Program-made: the position numbers and the translations under genes | Assembly: GCF_000455265.1 (NCBI RefSeq) | Contig: NZ_HG005141.1 | Coordinates: forward strand, 62,001 to 126,000 | Direction: 5' to 3' | Length of the DNA: 64,000 nucleotides | Origin: Paenibacillus antibioticophila | Lineage (GTDB): Bacteria; Bacillota; Bacilli; Paenibacillales; Paenibacillaceae | Notes under the pieces: model-generated | What the model was told of the DNA's origin: nothing | The model's input: only the letters and a program-made list of their open reading frames with translations | Database searches by the model: none | In this document: one piece after another, positions 2,771 to 61,789 of the stretch | Layout: each line of letters opens with the position of its first letter | Position numbering within the stretch: the first letter of the stretch is position 1

Positions 2771-5700
2771 TTAGTCAATCATCCCGCTCTTCTTCAGCAT
2801 GCGCTGGATAAGTGCGGCAGCTTCCCCTCTGGTTAATGCTTGCTTCGGCATCATCATGCCATCCGGCGAGCCTTCCAGAATGCCAAGACTGACAAGCTCT
2901 TCGGCTGAAGTCCGTGCCCAGTCCGGCAAGCTGTCCAGATCCTTGAACAGCAAGCCCGAAGCCGTTGACGAGCTTGTTTGGGCCGTGCTCTGGAATTCTT
3001 CTTCCGCTATAGACCGAGCAATAATAACAATCGCCTCCTGACGGCTGATTGCTTGACGGGGGCGGAAGTCTCCCGCTGCATCTCCCTGGATTAATCCATG
3101 CTCTACCGCCAGTGCAAGCGGATCATGGAACCAATCCGTGACGCTGACATCCTTGAAGACCGCGGCCGGAACAGACGAATCGTACAGACCTAGCGCTCTT
3201 GCCATCAAAGCTGCAAACGCTGCGCGCTCCATAGGCGCCTCCGGAGAAAACTGCCCCTCCGCTGTTCCCGTGATAATCAGCCTCGAGGCCAAATCATTCA
3301 CCGCTTCGCCGGACCAATGGGAGACCGCATCCGCAAATGCTGCCGGCTTCGATATCAAGGCAAACGAGCCATTATGCATGCTCTTCAGCACCGCATGGCG
3401 AGTGCCGTCTTCCAGAGTCTCGTGCCGAGTCGGCACTGAGATGACGGTCCCATCCTCCCCAATAAAGACGCCGGTCGTTACAGTATCAGCTTGCTCCGGA
3501 GGAACAGGCAGGCTGCGCTGCACATACCGTCCCCACTTCTCTATCGGATGAATGTGTTCCCCGACCTGTATGGCCGCTTTAAATTGAACGGGAGATAGCA
3601 GCGTCACAAAATGCTGCTCTGCCTCCGCCCGGGCAAGCTGCTCCTGCACTTTGCTCGCGCTGCCGCCCAAGGTAAAGGTAACTATGGCCTGACTGGCAGA
3701 TTCTTTATCCGCCTCAGCCCCATAGCGTTCAAAAGCTTCGGCTAGCTCCCCTGCTGCGAAACGGAAGCCGCCAAGGGAGGAACGCAGCTCCAGGGAGCCT
3801 TCCCTTTCAGCAAACAATTCCATGGCTTGAGCGTCCATACTCAATTCAATAAGCTCAGCCTGCTGCCCGAGAATGAGGAACAGGCTCGAATCACTCCCTG
3901 GCATTTCCATTGCGGCTTTTAATTTTGTGGAATCGAGCCTGAGCGATACAACTTGCTTAGCTCCATCGTTACGAAGTCCAGCATGAACTATGCTGTCCTG
4001 AGGCTGGTGGTTTAAAAGCACCTGGAGATCAAGCTGCTTCGAAGGAGGCTGTGATACATTGCCCTCCGGCGACTGTCCTGACCTCCCCGGCTCGCTTCCT
4101 CCGCCCGTACCGCCTTCGCCAGGGTTATCCGGCCCTTCACCCGGGTTGCCCGGCCCTTCACCCGGGTTGCCCGGTCCTTCACCTGGTTCGCCCGGTCCTT
4201 CTCCCGGATTGCCTGGTCCTTCACCTGGTCCACCCGGTCCTTCTCCTTCTCCCGGGTTGCCCCCAGGCACGCTGTCCCGGGTCAAGACGATCCGATACTC
4301 CTGTTCCTGGCCATCCGGCATCCTCACGACAACCGACAAATAGGCTGCTCCTTCTCCCACAGTCAACTCCTCACTGGGAACTCCAAACACCAGCGGCACC
4401 GGCCCCTGCAGGAGCTGTCCGGTCTCCCCGTAGACGCTTGCCGTCACACTGGCTGCTGTGTCGTAGACGTCCGCCGTGACTGAAAGCCGATCCGTAGCTT
4501 CAGCAAGTCTAAGGTTGTAAGTGTATTGGTAGCGGCCGAAGCCGGGATTCAATGCCAAACCGCTCTCTTGCGCCGACTGTACGGATAGTTGCCGCAGGGT
4601 CGGATCGTGCAGCGGAGCCAGCGGTCTTGTCTTCACGCTCAGCATCGGATAAGCGCTCTTGTTCCCTGCACTGTCCCTGACAATGACACTGAAATAGTAG
4701 GTTTGGTCCGGGACAAACAGCCGCATCGCCGCACTCGTCTGATTTTTTTCATAGGGTCCCAGAGCCATCCCGTTTTGTTCTACCTGCTCAACCGTGCTTA
4801 AGTTATCCCTGCCCGATAAATACAGCCTGTACTCCAGTTCGTCCGGATCATCAAGATTGTCGGAAGCAGCAGCCCACTGCAGCTCTATGGAATCCGTTGT
4901 GACCTCGACAGCCTCGATCAGGCCTCCCGGCACCGGGGCTGTAGTATCCAGAATAGCCTTGCTTAACACGGGAACCATGCTTGTACTCCAGGTTCCGTCA
5001 CCAAGCTGACCATAACCGTTGTATCCCCAGCCCCAGACGCGCATATCCTCCGTCACCGCCACGCTGTGAAAGCCGCCGGCAGAGATATCGATCACAGGCG
5101 TCAAATCCTGAATCCGGGCAGGAACTCTATCACTGGAGGTGCCCGAACGTCCTAGCTGGCCGTAATTCCCCAAGCCCCAACTCCATACGGCACCGTCCGC
5201 ATCCAAAGCAAGGCTATGGTAGCCACCTCCGGCAATATCCACAATATTTTCCAAATTCAAAACCCTCACCGGCAGGTTTCGGTTAGATATTGTTCCATCC
5301 CCTAATTGGCCCTGACTGTTGGAGCCCCAGGCCCATACCGTGCCATCCCGCTTGACTGCCAGGGAGTGCGAACCGCCCGCGGCAATCCTGATAACATCGC
5401 TAAGACCCGCAACCTGCACCGGCAGGAGCTTGTCCGTGAGCGTTCCGTCGCCGAGCTCTCCGTTCTGGTTCGTTCCCCAAGCCCAGACAGTCCCGTCCTC
5501 CTTCAGAGCAAAACTGGAGTAGCCTCCTGCGGCAATCGCCGTAATTCCGTTTAAACCGTTAACTTGAACAGGCGCGTTTTTCTGGACCTTTGTTCCATCC
5601 CCCAGCTCGCCGCTGTCATTCTTCCCCCATGTCCACACTGTGCCGTCCTCGGCAAGCGCCATGCTATGGTAGCCAAGCCCGCCCGATATAGCTGTTATTC

Positions 5701-6312: not shown

Positions 6313-8967
6313 ATGCGCCGAACGTCTAGTCCTTTGTTAAAAACTAAATTGTTCGTTCCCGAATCGAAGGACCGGCTGGTTCAGCGGGAGCGCCTGCTCC
6401 ATTCGATCTCTGAGGGCTTCCGGCTGGGAAAACGCTTAATCGCTGTCGTGGCTCCAGCAGGCTACGGCAAGTCCACCCTGCTCGCCCAATGGGCCAACCA
6501 TGCCGGAATGCCTTGCGCCTGGCTATCGGTTGATGCACGGGACAATGATCCTGTACGCTTCTGGAGATATTTTACCGCTTCAATAGCCTCTGCCCTGCCC
6601 GAGCAGCATCGTCAGCAGCTTGAAGCCAATTGCCAGTTGCAGGACGGGGTCTCCATCTATACTTTTTTGGACGCCCTCATTAGCGGACTGCCCGAAGAAA
6701 CGGATCATAAGCATGCTTTTGCGCTTCTACTCGACGATCTTCACGAAATCACCACCCCCTCTATTCTTGAGGGATTGTCTTATCTGTTCGACTATATGCC
6801 TGATTCGATGCACGTGCTTCTGTCCTCCCGCTCGGAGCTCATGATCCCCGGTATAAAGCGGCTGGCAAATGGAGAAGCCATGGTGGTCGGCATGGGCCAG
6901 CTCCAATTCACAGCGAGCGAGACCGAGAGCCTGTTTCGCATGGTTAACGGGGAGCCGCATACAGAATGGACGTCCGCCCAGCTGGACGAGCTTCAGCGGA
7001 AGACGGAGGGATGGATTACCGGACTGCAGCTTCTCTCCTTATCGCGCCCCTTTGGCAACGACAGTCTCATGCATCTGGCCTACGACGGAGAGTCATTTAT
7101 TTCCGATTATTTGTTCCAAGAGGTTTTACATCTGCTTTCTTCCGATTTGCATGATTTCCTTCTTCGGACCTCCGTGCTGTCTAGAATGGACGCTCCGGCC
7201 TGCAATGCGTTGACCGGACGGACCGACGGCGGGCAGCAGTTGGAGGAGCTTCAGCGATTGAATCTGTTCCTGATCCCGCTTGATGGAACGCGGACCTGGT
7301 TCCGTTATCACCACCTGTTCGCACAGTTTCTGCAAGGCCAGCTTCGACGCAGGGATGAGAAAGCGTATGCTGCAATGCACCGAGCAGCCGGGCTGCATTT
7401 TTCTGAAATCGGTGCTATGGAGGATGCTATTGACCACTTGTTTGAAGCCGGTGAGATTATGCTCGCCATCCAGGCCCTGGAGCGACACCTGCCTGCAGCG
7501 CTCAGACAAGGGGATCTATCTACACTGTTGAATTGGTTTCGCAGAATTCCCGAGGCCTGCTCCCTGACGCTTGAGTTGTCCCTGCTTCACGCCTTCCTGC
7601 TTGTGCTGGCCGGTGATCTGGAGCGCTCCGGACGGGTATTGGAGCAGCTGGAGGAGGAAATAGACAGACTGAGCCCTTCCAGCCGGCAGGACCAGCTTCG
7701 AAGCAGCTTATTGTTCGTCCGTTCTAATTTGGTCTTTTTAAATGGGGACTTTGCAGGGTGGCTGGCCTCGAGCGAAAAGGTACGAGATCATCTCGCTCCG
7801 GACAACCCAGTCTATTACCAATTCGACTATAACCGCCAAGAGCCTTATGTCCGGCGCACCTCGCTGGGCATGAAAGGAAGGCTGTCCAAGGACACTGAAA
7901 AAGTCGGAAAATTGTTCATCGAGGTATTGGAAGGCCACGGCTGGAAAAACTCTCTGCTCCACCTGTACGTAAAGCAGTGCCTCGCCGAAGGCTATTACGA
8001 GTGGAACCGCCTGGTCGATTGCCGCGAGCTGTTGATGCAACTGCGCAACTCGGACAAGCTGCGGGAGACGCCAGGTCTGCTTATTCCGGTTCTTCTCACG
8101 GAAGCGCGGCTGCATGCTGCCGAAGGCAAGTCCGCCTTGGCTTATCACACCCTGGACGAAGCGGCTGAGGCCGCCGCGGCCTGCATTCCTGACGGGGGAC
8201 GCTGGGGTCGCTATGTACGAGCCGTACGGAGCAATCTGTACTTACGGGACGGTCGATTGGGCGAGGCGAAAAAGGAACTGGCCCCATTGCATATCGGTTC
8301 CGGAAGCAAGCCGGTATACAGCCGGGAAACCGAGTTTCTCGCGTTGGTTCGGCTGCTTGGGAGGCAGCGCAAGGAGGCTGAGGCTCTGCCGATGCTCGAA
8401 CTGCTCAAGCTGCAAGCGGAGCGGGAACAGCAGATCGCCTGCCGGGTAGAGATTACCTGTCTCCAGGCATTGCTGGAAGCTCAGCGGGGCCAGCGCTTGC
8501 TTGCCTTCAGCCTGATCGAGGAAGCGCTCGTTCTGGGTAAAGACAACGACTACCGCAGAACCTTTGTGGACGAAGGAGCCGATATGCAGTTGCTGCTGAA
8601 GGCTTACCTTGCTGATCGGTACAATGTGCGCGCTTCTGCTTCCGGCTCCGATCAAGGACTAGAGCAATTGGGCCCTCTCCTGGATTATGTGGAGAAGCTG
8701 ATCCATGCCTTTCCTGGCACGCCAGGAATTCCTGCACATCAGAGGAGCCTCCCGGTGCTCGACCTTCTCGAACCCTTGAGCAGCAAAGAGCTTCTCCTCC
8801 TGGAGCAGCTCCGGCTCGGAGCGACCAACAAGCAGATGGCCGCAGCGCTTGGATTGACCGAAGGCACCATCCGCGTGTACTTGTCCCGTTTGTACGAGAA
8901 GCTGGGCGTATCCACCCGCACCCAGGCGCTGGTTAAAACCCAGAGCCTGCCGTTGTCGGGGAAGTAA
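6313..8967 (+). CDS. MalT-type LuxR family regulator (STAND ATPase)
   Basis: 884 residues. N-terminal STAND NTPase domain with Walker A APAGYGKSTLLAQW at about residues 51-64 and Walker B-like FALLLDDLHEI near 136-146. The middle ~450 residues are helical, TPR-like and probably sense a ligand. The C-terminal LuxR helix-turn-helix (LSSKELLLLEQL, ATNKQMAAALGL, TIRVYLSRLYEKL) spans ~818-873. The family (large ATP-binding LuxR regulators) activates transcription when bound to an inducer and ATP; the inducer here is unknown. ATG is preceded by a GAGGTAAG-like site. It is divergent from the RCC1-SLH gene with a 206-bp shared control region in which I found no convincing promoter pair. Confidence 0.85.
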   Translation: MRRTSSPLLKTKLFVPESKDRLVQRERLLHSISEGFRLGKRLIAVVAPAGYGKSTLLAQWANHAGMPCAWLSVDARDNDPVRFWRYFTASIASALPEQHRQQLEANCQLQDGVSIYTFLDALISGLPEETDHKHAFALLLDDLHEITTPSILEGLSYLFDYMPDSMHVLLSSRSELMIPGIKRLANGEAMVVGMGQLQFTASETESLFRMVNGEPHTEWTSAQLDELQRKTEGWITGLQLLSLSRPFGNDSLMHLAYDGESFISDYLFQEVLHLLSSDLHDFLLRTSVLSRMDAPACNALTGRTDGGQQLEELQRLNLFLIPLDGTRTWFRYHHLFAQFLQGQLRRRDEKAYAAMHRAAGLHFSEIGAMEDAIDHLFEAGEIMLAIQALERHLPAALRQGDLSTLLNWFRRIPEACSLTLELSLLHAFLLVLAGDLERSGRVLEQLEEEIDRLSPSSRQDQLRSSLLFVRSNLVFLNGDFAGWLASSEKVRDHLAPDNPVYYQFDYNRQEPYVRRTSLGMKGRLSKDTEKVGKLFIEVLEGHGWKNSLLHLYVKQCLAEGYYEWNRLVDCRELLMQLRNSDKLRETPGLLIPVLLTEARLHAAEGKSALAYHTLDEAAEAAAACIPDGGRWGRYVRAVRSNLYLRDGRLGEAKKELAPLHIGSGSKPVYSRETEFLALVRLLGRQRKEAEALPMLELLKLQAEREQQIACRVEITCLQALLEAQRGQRLLAFSLIEEALVLGKDNDYRRTFVDEGADMQLLLKAYLADRYNVRASASGSDQGLEQLGPLLDYVEKLIHAFPGTPGIPAHQRSLPVLDLLEPLSSKELLLLEQLRLGATNKQMAAALGLTEGTIRVYLSRLYEKLGVSTRTQALVKTQSLPLSGK

Positions 8968-9208: not shown

Positions 9209-9370
9209 CTCGCATGAACTCCCGGGCCGGTAATTTTAATGCCTTTTGGCACTAAAATCGTCGCGTGAACTCCCACACAAGTAATTTTAATGCCTTTTGT
9301 CATTAAATTCGTCGCATGAGCTCCCAAGCCAGGAATTTTAATGCCTTTTGGCACTAAAATCGTCGTGAGA
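9209..9370. repeat. 51-bp tandem array, family F1, locus 1 (three units)
   Basis: AATTTTAATG starts at 9232, 9283 and 9334, an exact 51-bp period. Each unit contains TTTTAATGCC and GGCACTAAAA separated by TTTT, i.e. a 10-bp near-perfect stem with a T4 loop, followed by CGTCGCRTGARCTCC. The same unit forms five copies at 28484-28740. Because 51 is a multiple of three, the minus strand shows an open 137-codon frame with 17-residue repeats that I regard as a by-product. Confidence 0.85.
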
Positions 9371-17367: not shown

Positions 17368-17379
17368 TTGCTCAAAATG

Positions 17380-17550
17380 CAACTATTACGATAAAGTGTG
17401 AGCCGATTGGGAGATTAACTGTATTTCCTGCAACTATTACCCTTCATTTAGTGGAGAATGACATCAACATATCAATATAAATGCCTTTCATACAACTAGC
17501 TCTACATTTGCAGCCTTTTGTTAGAGCTTTAATTGCAGTTTCTACAACTA
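17380..17550. repeat. Degenerate ~51-bp array, family F3, locus 1 (four boxes)
   Basis: CAACTA boxes start at 17380, 17431, 17493 and 17545 (spacing 51, 62, 52). Each belongs to a longer motif which on the minus strand reads TAGTTGYAGRAA followed by about CAGTTA (e.g. TAGTTGTAGAAACTGCAATT). The array fills the 303-bp gap between the MFS gene and argH. The related locus 31243-31428 has boxes in both orientations. Confidence 0.65.
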
Positions 17551-19297: not shown

Positions 19298-19475
19298 AGT
19301 GAAAAAAGTTACCTTAAATACGCGCAACATGGTGGAAATGCGGATATAGTGAATTTTTTTCGCTTAAAGTTCGCTGGATCGGCTCTTAAACCGGTTTTCG
19401 ATTATCTAAGGTCATTTTTTTCACTAAAGTTACAATATAGGCTCGGGCGAGATTTCTAAGGTAAATAATTTCACT
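19298..19475. repeat. 178-bp four-box element, family F2, locus 1
   Basis: AGTGAA boxes start at 19298 and 19348, and inverted TTCACT boxes at 19420 and 19470: spacing 50, 72, 50. Each box is the head of a ~24-bp motif, TAGTGAAA then about six variable bases then CCTTAAAT. Two further elements with identical spacing lie at 56179 and 57415. Located between argG and argH. Confidence 0.85.
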
Positions 19476-28465: not shown

Positions 28466-28740
28466 CGAGCTCCCTGCACCAGTAATTTTAATGCTTTTTG
28501 TCACTAAAATCGTCGCATGAGCACCTACATCAGAAATTTTAATGACTTACTGCACTATAATCACCGCAAGAGAGCCCACACTAGAAATTTTAATGCCTTT
28601 TGGCACTAAAATCGTCACGCGGGCACTTATGCCAGCAATTTTAATGCCTTTTGCCATTAAAATAACCCCACAAGCTCAACCGTCAGCCATTTTAATGCCC
28701 TCCGGCACTTATTTTGCTGCACAAGCTCCAACACACATAT
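28466..28740. repeat. 51-bp tandem array, family F1, locus 2 (five units)
   Basis: AATTTTAATG heads start at 28484, 28535, 28586, 28637 and 28688 (last one CATTTTAATG), exact 51-bp period. Units carry TTTTAATGCC..GGCACTAAAA stem-loops and CGTCGCATGAGC-like spacers, as at 9209-9370. It occupies the 3' flank of the yitT-like gene. Confidence 0.88.
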
Positions 28741-56178: not shown

Positions 56179-56356
56179 AGTGAATATTTTTCTATTAAAT
56201 TCACGAAAATGAGCACTATTGTGATTTTAGTGAAATTTTTTCCCTTAGAATCTGGAATTCAACACCCTCACCTTATATCGCAAAATTTAAGTGCAAATAT
56301 TTCACTATATCTCTCAACAAAGCATTTTGGCAGGATCTAAGCGAACTTTTTTCACT
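56179..56356. repeat. 178-bp four-box element, family F2, locus 2
   Basis: AGTGAA at 56179 and 56229; inverted TTCACT at 56301 and 56351 (spacing 50, 72, 50). Intervening sequence diverged from the other copies but of identical length. Lies in the 650-bp gap between the glycosidase and nuclease-like genes; the rest of the gap shows nothing clear. Confidence 0.85.
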
Positions 56357-57414: not shown

Positions 57415-57592
57415 AGTGAAATTACTTCCCTTAAATCCTCGCAATAATGGTATTTACCACATCTAGTGAAATAAACAACCTTAAATTCCAGCATTTTCAG
57501 CTTTTGCACTAAATCCTCATATTTAACGTCAAAAATTTCACTAAAACAGCCAATACCCAGATATTACTCAATTTAAGGTAACTTTCTTCACT
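57415..57592. repeat. 178-bp four-box element, family F2, locus 3
   Basis: AGTGAA at 57415 and 57465; inverted TTCACT at 57537 and 57587 (spacing 50, 72, 50). Full motifs: TAGTGAAATTACTTCCCTTA and TAGTGAAATAAACAACCTTA in the direct half, and their inverted relatives in the right half. Between the large SLH gene and the terminator at 57272. Confidence 0.88.
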
Positions 57593-57733: not shown

Positions 57734-60700
57734 CTACTGTGTCAGCTTATCCAATACCCGCTTCAGCATAACCGCTGCTTCTGCACGGCTGGCATTTCCA
57801 GCAGGCTGGAACTGGAATCCGGTGCCGACATTCACGCCTTGAATAATCCCTTCATTCACAGCCTTTGCAACTGTGTCCTTGGATTGGATCTTCGCCGCAT
57901 CCTTGAACCGGGACAGCGTTGTTGACGCACCGCCGCCTGTGTTCATCTTATAGCCCGTATACTCCATCGCACGGACCATCATCAGAGCCATCTGCTCGCG
58001 AGTAATATTATTGTTCGGCTTGAACGTCCCATCCGTATTACCGTTGATAATCCCCGCTGCCGTAGCCGCACGTATATATTCGGCTGACGGATCCGATGAG
58101 GAGACGTCCGGGAAGCTAAGCGTTCCTGACGAACCAGCGTTGTCAGCGCTAAGTCCCAGGCCTTTCGCGATAAACGTCGCAAATTCGGCTCGGGTAATGT
58201 TCCGATTCGGCTCGAATTTATAGCTTGTTCCGCCGCCTGTTGATTCTATAACCATTTTACCCGCAAGGTCAAGGATGTCATCCTTCGCCCAATGGCGAGA
58301 CGTGTCCTCGAAATATCCGTATCCAAGCGCAGGCCCTACAATCGAGTTCCCGCTCACTGTGCCGGAGAATACACTGCCTGTTCCACTGCTCTTCATCCCC
58401 GACAGAATATAATTTACCTTGCGATTAGCGGTATTGTATTTAAGCAGCATTCCACTGACAGAGGAGGATTGTCCGGCCTCCCGAATGTAGATTTTCCCCT
58501 TATGACTGGTATCGTGTAATAAACCGCCGCTCGTGCTCGCTCCAACAAATACCTCCAAAGGATCGTTCACGGCACTGACCGTAGCTGTCCCGCTCGAAGG
58601 AAGTGATGGCACACTATCACGCGGTATATTTTCCAGCCGCACAAGCAAGTATACTCCATCCAGCGTACTGTTTCCCGTAATGCTTGATATTCCCGAGAAG
58701 GAGATGTCCTTAATCTGCTGCACATACATATTATCACCAAACTTCACGCCAATGGACGCGGTTTTCCCGCTGGTAAAGGCATCCTTCAACGGGCCGAGCG
58801 GTATGGCTACCGATCCGGCCTTCTCCGTATTAGGAACCTCAAACACCATGATCTTATCCCCTGATGCAGAACTGGAACTATTCGTCAGAAAATCAAGGGC
58901 TCCCTTTACCTGATCCGTAGCCAGGGTGTATCTATTCACCGACTTTCCGTAACGCGAGTTGTCGGCGGTCTTCGTAGCAGCACTCTGATCCAGCATATAG
59001 CTTCCGTTAATGCCAAAGGTTGTTCCATTCATTAATGTCAGATACGAAGGCTGAGTAGTAGTAGTAGTAGTCCCCGTGCTCGTTCCAGTTGAGGCTCCTG
59101 ATGTCAGATTCGTTACCGCCAGCCCGCTAAAGCTCTTCATCGCATTGCCCGAAGTATCATAGAGCAACACAGAACCCGTCATATACGAAACCTCAACCGC
59201 TTGTGAAGCTGCAACCGCACTGGCGAGCTTGAGGGTTACCGTGTCCCCGCTCACACTCACAGACTGGATGGAGCGAGGATCCTTGTTCACCGATACATAG
59301 AACTGGCTTGCCGGGAACGTCGAAACCGAGCGCAGCGGGGAGCTATACGTAATTGTGAGTGTATCCCCACGGACAACTGCAGATCGAATTCCCTCTATAA
59401 CTACCGCATAATTGATCGGCTGAAGATCAATGTATCCCGCGAGGTTGCCATTCAGATCCGCAATCCCTCCCGGCCCGGATACATAGGAAATCGTCACATT
59501 TTGATCCTTTGTAAAAGAAGAAGCCAGTGTCAGAAGCACCCGATCCCCTGAAATTTCCACCTTCGTTACATAGATTGGGGCGTTGTTGACCAGCACCGAG
59601 AACTGGCTTTTCATCGGAACGCTGGTAGTGCGAAGCGCCTCGTCATAGGTCAAAATAATGCTCGTGCCAGAGCCCTCCACACTTGTGAGCTTCGGCGGAA
59701 CTGTATCATACGAATTGCGGACATAGTAATCGGCAAATCCTGCAATATTTTGGCCTCTCAGATCCTGAAGCGGATAAGAGCCGGGGGAATAAGAAACTCT
59801 GACTACTTCCCCATTGCCAACAGAACTGGACAGATACAATGTAACTGTTGAGCCGCTCTGGGAAATTCGATCAATTCCTTTAGAGTAGCCGTCAGCCGTT
59901 ACTGTAAACTGTTCATAAGCGTAGGTAGACACACTTTTCATAGAGTCGCTGAAATACAATGTTAGTATACTTCCGGAGACATAGCCGTCCTTCGGCTTCG
60001 GCATGACCGAATCGATACCGTTCGTCACGTCCTTGCTTGAAATACCCCCAGCCAAGTTGCCAGCCAGATCCCGAATGGGACGCAGGCTGCCCTGGCTATA
60101 GCTAACCCGAATGTTCTGACCGACAGCTACTCCAGTCTCCAGAACCACGTATGCACTATTTCCCGAAATATAGGCGTTGCTGAGTTTTCTCGTCTCTCCA
60201 TTCACCGTCACAGTGAAGCTGGATGTCAGCAGAGTAACCGTAGAATCCAGTGACTCATCATAGGTCAGACGAATCGTTCTGTTCCCTTCCATTGTGGCCG
60301 TTTGCAGCACAGGAGGCGTCTTGTCTATAGACACGGTCTGGAAGGCCCAACTGGAGGCTCCGTTCAAGGCCGTGTTGAGCGTGCCCGTTGCAGTATCCTT
60401 CACTGCACCAGCCGCAATATCAATGTAATAGGTGGAGCCTTCCTGCAAAGCACTGGAGGGAACGATGTTTAATCTAGCTCCCGAGGCAGTGATGCTTGCC
60501 GGAATCGCCGTAGTTGTTCCTTGCTTGCGCAGCGTCACTTTACTGGCATCCTCCAACGTAATAGGGTTGCTGAACGTTGCATAGATGCTGGTAGTCAGGC
60601 TTATTCCTGAGCTATTATTAGCTGGAAATACGGAAGAAATACGAAATGTGCCAGAAGCTGAGCTGCTTCCCGTTGTGAAAGTCCAATTACGAGCCTCCGT

Positions 60701-61789
60701 CGAATTTCCATCTGTATCCTTGAATGCCCCCACAGGAACATCCACTCTGTATGCTGTGGAATAGCTTAGAGCAGGCAGGGTGATCGTAATACTTGAAGTT
60801 CCTCCGCCCTTTACATCCGCCGAAGTAACTGCTATATCGCGCATCTTCGTGCCATTAGCGTTCAAGGACAAAGTGATTACTCCACGATCCGGATAGACAG
60901 GACGAGAAAAGTTCAATTTCAGAGTCTCATTAATCCCAACTCCTGTAGCCCCAGCAGCAGGTTGCGTTGAGCTCCAGGCTACGGCGTTCCCTCTCACATT
61001 GACGAACCATTCCTGGGCACTGGAGATCCCTGCAAAGGCCTGACCATCACTATCTACAAATGCCCCTTGATCAACCAATACATAGTAACGCTCCCCTCTA
61101 GCCAAGCCAGTCACTGTCCAGGAGGCTGTTCTGTCTGCGATCATGGCTGCCGTAGCAGCGGCACTGAACACAGTTGCATTTGAAGAAGCGCTCTTCACGG
61201 TCACACTGCCTGTTCCGGCCAATACGGGCTTATCAAACGTGAGACTGAACGTAGTGGACGTCCCAACCAGGTCTACTATAGCACCCGATGCCGGCAAGAA
61301 GGGATTCTCCTCAGCCTTCACTGGCGGCCGGCTGTTTGAATCGCTTAAGCTTGTGAATGATAATTCGAAGGCAGCACTTGAAAGCGATGAATCCACGGCA
61401 TCAACAAATGCCCCCTCACTACCGATCACATGGTACACTTGACCTTCTGTCAAACGCTTTCCCGCTGGAATATCAATTTCCATACTTAAAGTAGTAAATA
61501 CCGGTGAAGGCGTCACACCAACTTCATGGAACAAGGTTCCACCTTCAACAATCTGTATGGTTCCATTTCCCGGTTTAACTGGGCGATTAAAATTCAGTAC
61601 GATCTTATCCGTATCCAGCGATACTCCCTTAGCCCCGTTCGCCGGAACCATACTCTCGATCAACTCGAACGGGTCTCCTGGAGCCGCACTCGCCCCTCCT
61701 ACACCAACTAGTAGATTCAGCAACAAGCATACCGCCAGCAGCAGCGACACCTTTCCTCTTGAGCTCTTCATCCTTGTCATTTTGTTCAT
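57734..61789 (-). CDS. Large SLH surface protein with Ig-like and SwmB-type repeats
   Basis: 1351 residues, AGAGGAG before ATG. Signal peptide (~8-36). Four Big_5/SbsA Ig-like domains (~40-490; each opens with a P-x-x-G pattern and LNFSRPV-like strand). About four SwmB-type repeats (~495-910; units with LTYDEAL..SQFSVLVN and VTISYVSGP). A Thr/Ser linker of repeated Gly-Thr-Ser at ~918-932, an unassigned ~220-residue region, and three SLH motifs (~1170-1350; FEDTSRHWAKDDI, FPDVSSSDPSAEYI, NASRAEAAVMLKRVL). Likely wall-anchored adhesin or S-layer associated protein. Confidence 0.85.
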   Translation of the reverse strand: MNKMTRMKSSRGKVSLLLAVCLLLNLLVGVGGASAAPGDPFELIESMVPANGAKGVSLDTDKIVLNFNRPVKPGNGTIQIVEGGTLFHEVGVTPSPVFTTLSMEIDIPAGKRLTEGQVYHVIGSEGAFVDAVDSSLSSAAFELSFTSLSDSNSRPPVKAEENPFLPASGAIVDLVGTSTTFSLTFDKPVLAGTGSVTVKSASSNATVFSAAATAAMIADRTASWTVTGLARGERYYVLVDQGAFVDSDGQAFAGISSAQEWFVNVRGNAVAWSSTQPAAGATGVGINETLKLNFSRPVYPDRGVITLSLNANGTKMRDIAVTSADVKGGGTSSITITLPALSYSTAYRVDVPVGAFKDTDGNSTEARNWTFTTGSSSASGTFRISSVFPANNSSGISLTTSIYATFSNPITLEDASKVTLRKQGTTTAIPASITASGARLNIVPSSALQEGSTYYIDIAAGAVKDTATGTLNTALNGASSWAFQTVSIDKTPPVLQTATMEGNRTIRLTYDESLDSTVTLLTSSFTVTVNGETRKLSNAYISGNSAYVVLETGVAVGQNIRVSYSQGSLRPIRDLAGNLAGGISSKDVTNGIDSVMPKPKDGYVSGSILTLYFSDSMKSVSTYAYEQFTVTADGYSKGIDRISQSGSTVTLYLSSSVGNGEVVRVSYSPGSYPLQDLRGQNIAGFADYYVRNSYDTVPPKLTSVEGSGTSIILTYDEALRTTSVPMKSQFSVLVNNAPIYVTKVEISGDRVLLTLASSFTKDQNVTISYVSGPGGIADLNGNLAGYIDLQPINYAVVIEGIRSAVVRGDTLTITYSSPLRSVSTFPASQFYVSVNKDPRSIQSVSVSGDTVTLKLASAVAASQAVEVSYMTGSVLLYDTSGNAMKSFSGLAVTNLTSGASTGTSTGTTTTTTQPSYLTLMNGTTFGINGSYMLDQSAATKTADNSRYGKSVNRYTLATDQVKGALDFLTNSSSSASGDKIMVFEVPNTEKAGSVAIPLGPLKDAFTSGKTASIGVKFGDNMYVQQIKDISFSGISSITGNSTLDGVYLLVRLENIPRDSVPSLPSSGTATVSAVNDPLEVFVGASTSGGLLHDTSHKGKIYIREAGQSSSVSGMLLKYNTANRKVNYILSGMKSSGTGSVFSGTVSGNSIVGPALGYGYFEDTSRHWAKDDILDLAGKMVIESTGGGTSYKFEPNRNITRAEFATFIAKGLGLSADNAGSSGTLSFPDVSSSDPSAEYIRAATAAGIINGNTDGTFKPNNNITREQMALMMVRAMEYTGYKMNTGGGASTTLSRFKDAAKIQSKDTVAKAVNEGIIQGVNVGTGFQFQPAGNASRAEAAVMLKRVLDKLTQ

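Follow-up and report, generated by a model that had tools for sequence, protein, structure and literature searches.

Four short boxes are held 50, 72 and 50 bp apart in a 178-bp element of Paenibacillus antibioticophila, and the same kind of layout recurs with boxes of unrelated sequence elsewhere in the order. That geometry is what is conserved here we consider very probable. On balance, we also lean towards the view that the element represents a single family within a class of dispersed, intergenic DNA elements of ~180–200 bp that is spread across the order and would be mobile-like and non-autonomous; the full reading, with mobility included, is held with moderate confidence. An element would comprise four imperfect-palindromic sites of ~22–26 bp. 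From centre to centre the outer distances are 50–52 bp and the middle one is 60–63 bp, or in two families 51 or 72 bp; at about 5-6-5 turns, this spacing is predicted to place all four sites on the same side of the helix. Each box family would have a putative dimeric, sequence-specific protein of its own, which would bind the four sites and may bend or wrap curved DNA into a compact complex, and a putative recombinase- or transposase-like activity in trans would disperse the elements as non-autonomous units. More tentatively, the class may be conserved across the order in three-dimensional geometry and not in letters, with putative proteins of interchangeable specificity wrapping the four dimer sites. 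The joint form of that idea, in which 5-6-5 turns, one helix face and curved DNA bearing A/T tracts at ~10-bp intervals come together and coexisting families spread unseen by homology searches, is plausible, although we stop short of favouring it.

The window, by which is meant the whole stretch of 64,000 nucleotides that was analysed, contains three copies. The best, at 57415–57592, has boxes at 57415–57436 and 57465–57486 on the plus strand and at 57521–57542 and 57571–57592 on the minus strand, and is matched by a profile model at C3:119414–119593. The second, at 56179–56356 (model match C3:118178–118357), has its boxes at 56179–56200 and 56229–56250 (plus) and at 56285–56306 and 56335–56356 (minus), and the third, at 19298–19475 (model match C3:81298–81476), at 19298–19319 and 19348–19369 (plus) and at 19404–19425 and 19454–19475 (minus); the elements as wholes are given unstranded. 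Each of the three has AGTGAA at offsets 0 and 50, followed by TTCACT at offsets 122 and 172. An earlier, sequence-only reading had placed three copies here at 50, 72 and 50 bp, and both the coordinates and the spacing, measured between box starts, prove exact. It had also taken each box for the head of a longer motif, which stands in a corrected form, namely a site of ~22 bp that reads roughly AGTGAA-N8-CCTTAAAT. The 50-72-50 pattern had no match in 100 dinucleotide shuffles. The window copies are divergent in sequence and have unrelated flanks; the best adjoins a gene for a 1351-aa protein with swm_rep_I repeats (57734–61789).

A pattern search allowing at most three mismatches was made of the whole genome that carries the window (G000; 5.58 Mb in nine contigs). 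It found 51 copies at 50-72-50 and none of the reversed pattern, a frequency above that expected by chance. The element measures 178–183 bp and its outer boxes are inverted. Because such a search itself selects for spacing, the core DNA was also searched with no demand on spacing, and at least 40 matches at 83–100% identity were obtained (40 of 67 candidates scored). Most of the copies are thus closely related and not independent. Among these 40 scored matches, 38 show no length change, being aligned at 178 bp, or at 176 where an end box was mismatched; one of the remaining two is of 179 bp and the other is partial. A profile model that tolerates indels gave 58 strong loci among the 150 of 1243 candidates that were scored. 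All are of full length except two damaged ones, one of which is cut by an assembly gap whilst the other lacks the first box; these two, together with a fragment close to one, are the only partial model matches in G000 that stand out from noise. The distances are exactly 50-72-50 in 51 of the 56 full-length copies, differ by a net ±1 bp in four and carry a compensating +1/–1 in one. In G038, of the same genus, the model found further copies, one with 9 bp lost from a spacer and another, at a contig edge, also with indels. The proposal that the spacing is fixed to the base therefore holds for 51 of the 56 copies and fails for the other five and for the G038 copy with the 9-bp loss; free variation of the spacing was not seen, a few copies differing by 1–9 bp. 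Conservation of the spacing is very strong, not absolute.

Roughly 40 copies lie inside a larger repeat of ~1.1 kb with homologous flanks, whereas in others (among them the three of the window, L007, L023–L025, L027 and L028) the core stands alone and collinear homology of the flanks ends at the outer boxes. The larger repeat is intergenic and is a long nested inverted repeat, as seen at L018:1800–3500 (contig C2 of G000) and at ~40 similar loci. Part of it (L018:3090–3330) is matched, often in several copies, in 32 of the 39 same-genus genomes searched, its own included, and it is a separate, genus-wide repeat family. One other location is also repeated in two species: L012, L026 and L092, of which two are in G000 and one in G038, have a common left flank ending gacaaaaaacgttcatagc.

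The larger repeat allows the core to be compared with its surroundings, a comparison of indels and substitutions that the sequence-only reading had called for. When 22 copies were aligned, the gap fraction was 0.00–0.01 in the core versus 0.01–0.38 in 50-column blocks of the flanks. Counted by pairs, the cores of these copies, which had been preselected for spacing, have no gaps against 5377 substitutions, and the six neighbouring flank blocks have 8.3–12.8 gaps per 100 substitutions; substitutions per site are lower in the core too (0.13 versus 0.19–0.41). Presumed orthologues of G000 and G038, paired by their outer flanks and in some cases on one side only, give a similar picture. Five pairs of cores differ by 77 substitutions and no gap, and a sixth by 14 substitutions and one 9-bp gap; their flanks hold 584 substitutions and 54 gaps in nine alignments of at least 70% identity, a count that leaves out two alignments below 50% identity and one of 45 bases. 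It could be supposed that there is no selection at all, recent common descent having kept the spacing in copies that were themselves chosen by spacing, and the close kinship of most G000 copies accords with this. We nevertheless regard such an explanation as highly improbable: the core is free of indels in the very repeats whose flanks are rich in them, copies at 48–60% identity still keep the spacing, and independent box families have a common geometry.

This last point emerged from weak matches of the AGTGAA model in other species. These were first taken for chance; they resembled four-box arrays with different letters, and a scan was therefore made for any 6-mer arranged as w, w, w', w' at whatever distances. 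Over 400 kb of G011, the non-CRISPR arrays lie at outer spacings of 50 (boxes TAACGG and CTAACG) or 52 (TGCAAA), bar one at 120, among the 60 of 180 matches listed; an equal length of G008 (400 kb) gave four matches, all belonging to one array of spacing 50 with the box TAACGA. With shuffled sequence the counts were 0 and 1, respectively. A CRISPR-like array with a period of 66–68 bp (L142; G011 C1:4260001–4280000) dominates the direct-repeat statistics of its region, and the 8-mer distance spectra were dominated by the CRISPR array and other repeats. The elements themselves are not a CRISPR array: their boxes are two direct followed by two inverted, and their spacers are common to the copies. 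With mismatches tolerated, and with the CRISPR piece L142 left out, 1.24 Mb of the genus yielded 55 arrays, 38 of them (a few overlapping or GC-rich matches included) with an outer spacing of 50–52, compared with 3 of 31 in the reversed and 8 of 25 in the complement control. We believe that the complement control is raised by partial self-matching of A/T-rich palindromic boxes. Other genera gave 4 of 6 arrays at this spacing (reversed 0 of 3, complement 1 of 2) and other families of bacteria 4 of 7 (reversed 0 of 7, complement 0 of 3); 200 kb of E. coli gave none. Distances are rigid within a box family, for example, from 5' end to 5' end, 50-82-50 for TAACGAAAC and for TAACGGAC and 52-73-52 for TGCAAAAG. 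Of 392 genomes drawn from the order (presumably Paenibacillales), 132 carry the TAACGR form exactly, as do 32 of 49 genera; a single genome has up to 103 copies, and the reversed control had none.

Since G000 holds TAACGR arrays and other box families besides AGTGAA, several families coexist in one genome. A second family, TGCAACTA/TACAACTA, is found in the window at 17378–17550 (unstranded), with boxes at 17378, 17429, 17491 and 17543 (51-62-52), and its counterpart in G038 (L101, boxes at 147, 198, 260 and 311) is spaced 51-62-51. A third consists of palindromic ATTTTAATGCCTTTTGGCACTAAAAT-like boxes in 51-bp steps, likewise unstranded: five at 28485–28715 (28486, 28537, 28588, 28639 and 28690) and three at 9233–9361 (9234, 9285 and 9336). 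At both places (9234–9361 and 28485–28715) the palindromes ATTTTAATGCC..GGCACTAAAAT are repeated at exactly 51 bp, and these arrays are perhaps the other family of which the sequence-only reading spoke.

Because the boxes are imperfect palindromes, it is the distance from centre to centre that is meaningful. Among the 48 arrays with an outer spacing of 50–53, the 37 with a palindrome score of at least 0.5 were counted; the other 11, mostly of TAACGG type, have unreliable centres. The middle distance is 60–63 in 28 of the 37, 51 in two, both from one window locus, and 71–72 in three, the 71 being a TAACGG array that is probably mis-centred. Four lie elsewhere (20, 67, 76 and 116) and are GC-rich, mis-centred or overlapping. 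The value of 72 belongs to an ATAGCGG family in two genomes and that of 51 to the ATTTTAATG family, three loci in all for the two families that depart from 62. Such steps of 10–11 bp match a single turn of B-DNA, and 50–52 bp, the outer distance, amounts to about five. The helical phasing that the sequence-only reading had surmised is thereby upheld, although its count of five and seven turns is better given as 5-6-5 between site centres. If the middle segment must be of whole turns in so short an element, the quantisation would be explained.

The spacers are phased as well. In 32 TAACGR arrays they are A/T-rich at 19–23, 29–32, 39–42, 46–48, 69–73, 79–82 and 89–91 and low between, and this periodicity of ~10 bp, tested at positions picked after a first profile had been seen, was reached by none of 2000 rotation controls in 27 non-redundant TAACGR arrays, nor by any of 2000 in six divergent AGTGAA copies. 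Identity of letters between TAACGR spacers is 0.39; agreement in A/T versus G/C is 0.64, as against 0.52 after rotation. AGTGAA arrays and TAACGR arrays are in the same phase (r = 0.72; none of 5000 controls). For seventeen arrays from other families, agreement with the TAACGR phase falls short of significance (r = 0.38; 413 of 5000). Taken together these seventeen are periodic (0 of 5000), as are TGCAAAAG-type arrays alone (0 of 5000); in the ten that remain without the TGCAAAAG type the periodicity is not significant (894 of 5000), which tells against the mobile phased-element reading, and the DNA immediately flanking the elements shows no significant periodicity either (1504 and 418 of 5000). 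The spacers of three families thus keep a pattern of A/T and not their letters. Selection on geometry, as had been suggested, finds support in the core when set beside its flanks, in the orthologous cores, in the geometry common to unrelated boxes, and in the quantised distances and phased A/T tracts.

Sites of this kind might also serve the architecture of the chromosome, as anchors for nucleoid or gyrase-like proteins of the sort proposed for BIMEs, their spread being incidental. The elements are intergenic, are helically phased and have A/T phasing, and there is about one array of outer spacing 50–52 per 33 kb of the genus sample (38 in 1.24 Mb), all of which would suit such a role. One essential architectural function is difficult to reconcile with a patchy distribution (132 of 392 genomes for one box type), differing copy numbers and coexisting families, and we judge the proposal unlikely, if still deserving of attention.

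The context of 72 distinct arrays was determined with a simple ORF caller. Seven have no neighbour in the stretch and eight run into an ORF of 100 codons or more; the 57 that remain comprise 30 in tandem, 24 in convergent and three in divergent gaps, compared with 142, 55 and 49, respectively, for background intergenic gaps of at least 250 bp. By Fisher's test, P is 0.006 for fewer divergent and 0.004 for more convergent positions, although the 57 are not independent because many are related G000 copies. Divergent promoters are avoided, which argues against a classical operator.

Between protein binding and a folded RNA, both of which the sequence-only reading had offered, the evidence leans towards protein. 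An RNA made from the element could be suspected from the folding of two copies, whose inverted layout folds better than shuffles (z = –3.1 and –4.7). The two folds differ, and covariation beyond shuffles was found neither in nested (b1:b4, b2:b3) nor in crossed (b1:b3, b2:b4) pairing of the boxes, for which reason a folded RNA was rejected. Rfam has no match on the elements, its three matches elsewhere in L180 being a cobalamin riboswitch and two tRNAs; with neither covariation nor an Rfam match, membership of the structured non-coding RNAs was likewise not accepted. Quantisation at ~10.5 bp fits B-DNA, and a structured RNA is accordingly very unlikely.

The elements are dispersed as discrete units. 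Copy numbers differ between the close species G000 and G038 (51 versus 7 for AGTGAA; 16 versus 1 for TAACGR), the G038 counts being too low because its draft assembly leaves some copies at the edges of contigs. Together with the unrelated flanks of discrete units, this suggests dispersal by an activity in trans. With at most two mismatches, the AGTGAA pattern occurs in 2 of 117 genomes searched, G000 and G038. An exact scan that covered 84,980 species by a single genome each, from which records very close to the window's own are possibly excluded, found it in five stretches of Paenibacillus brevis MSJ-6 only, and a contig of 29,001 bases bears an element at 6813–6990. The family had no blastn match in phages or plasmids and no exact match in viral contigs, and a phage or plasmid origin was rejected on these grounds; the TAACGR type is present in four viral contigs.

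Some observations weigh against mobility of the phased elements. No target-site duplication was found, the longest direct repeats averaging 2.77 versus 2.44 for mismatched pairs in 13 G000 copies and 2.42 versus 2.09 in 12 others. No clear autonomous element with half-array ends, judged by box layout, was seen in ~2 Mb of 13 genomes; the far half-array matches listed (12 per set) are mostly pairs from neighbouring complete arrays, with a few unexplained (G011 7950, G008 132659 and a cluster in G100). Nor did G038 provide a clean empty site for the window copies or L028, a comparison that is uninformative because the intergenic DNA is unrelated over hundreds of bases. The larger repeat was never met without the core, all 17 own-genome matches of one left flank adjoining known cores, and copies tolerate changes of ±1 bp and, in one case, of –9 bp.

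These observations bear also on the possibility that the elements are the ends, collapsed into MITEs, of a DDE transposon of Mu- or Tn7-like type, each end of which bears a pair of transposase sites. Inverted two-site ends and dispersed units with fixed termini are what such an origin would give. It would be expected to leave target duplications, which are absent, and half-arrays bounding a longer element, which are not clear in the ~2 Mb among the matches listed. Random internal deletion would not yield a common middle distance across unrelated box families, and we think this origin distinctly unlikely. Less probable still, to an extreme degree, is movement of REPIN- or BIME-like elements by a RAYT, an IS200-like Y1 transposase, even though dispersed intergenic imperfect palindromes without target duplications recall them. 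Y1_Tnp (PF01797), the one transposase family searched, exceeds its cut-off in none of G000, G031, G011 and G008, which disfavours mobility of the REPIN type; G000 has one fragment of 22 bits against a cut-off of 23, which is passed by matches in G038 and G006. RAYT/REPIN was set aside on the G000 result. The trans-acting, non-autonomous dispersal proposed at the outset remains the reading that we prefer.

The elements can be compared with known systems. They resemble MITEs in being short, non-coding, intergenic and dispersed in many copies with inverted termini, the flanks of core-alone copies being unrelated; they differ in that neither a target duplication nor, in the ~2 Mb sampled, a clear parent transposon was found, in carrying two sites in each half and in keeping the middle distance fixed. 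Tn7- and Mu-type ends, at which several transposase sites per end enclose the transposase genes, have a similar site layout. The bcr1 repeat of the Bacillus cereus group is a dispersed repeat of roughly 155 bp. A title in the reference list of PMC2267715 describes it as having characteristics of a mobile element and as specific to one group. It is alike in being a dispersed repeat of Gram-positive bacteria and is set apart, by description, in being defined by sequence and confined to one group. In resolvase res sites and the Hin/Fis recombinational enhancer, the centres of dimer sites lie whole helical turns apart for assembly of a nucleoprotein complex; unlike the elements, these are single-copy sites beside a recombinase gene, with another number and layout of sites. 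REPs, BIMEs and REPINs are also intergenic imperfect palindromes in ordered inverted arrays. In excerpts of PMC2817692, REPs in BIMEs are called regularly spaced and reported as protein-binding sites, and the inter-REP segments of Stenotrophomonas BIMEs are said to vary substantially in length. Here, by contrast, the distances between boxes are fixed to the base, and G000 has no RAYT over cut-off. A GTAG-like REP head is absent, the boxes beginning TAGTGAA, TAACGR, TGCAAAAG, TACAACTA and so on. MITEs and REP/BIMEs each differ from the elements in at least one defining feature that was tested. Within the open-access literature, in so far as excerpts of it go, no description of such arrays in Paenibacillus was found. 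What would make the class new is its definition by conserved geometry across unrelated boxes; in the broadest sense it is a dispersed intergenic repeat.

Interspersed repeats are found and classified by similarity of sequence, and a class that conserves its spacing and its phase on the helix instead is not readily picked up by BLAST or Rfam; one box type alone nonetheless has exact matches in a third of the genomes sampled from the order. This suggests that scans based on geometry may uncover further elements of the kind. The class also predicts a new family of DNA-binding or recombining proteins, and the variants of 51, 62 and 72 bp form a natural series for experiments on DNA architecture.

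Two minor observations may be added. Within the frame of a 1111-aa protein, the window has a 21-bp tandem repeat (GGTCCTTCACC...) at 4129–4235. In the TAACGAAAC arrays of G031 and G008 (L151, L154, L176, L179, L180 and L183), the two pairs of boxes within an element are often unlike in the central 6 bp of the box, which read TACAGA/ACCATA in one pair and TGGGTA/TAGGTA in the other; this hints at an asymmetric complex.
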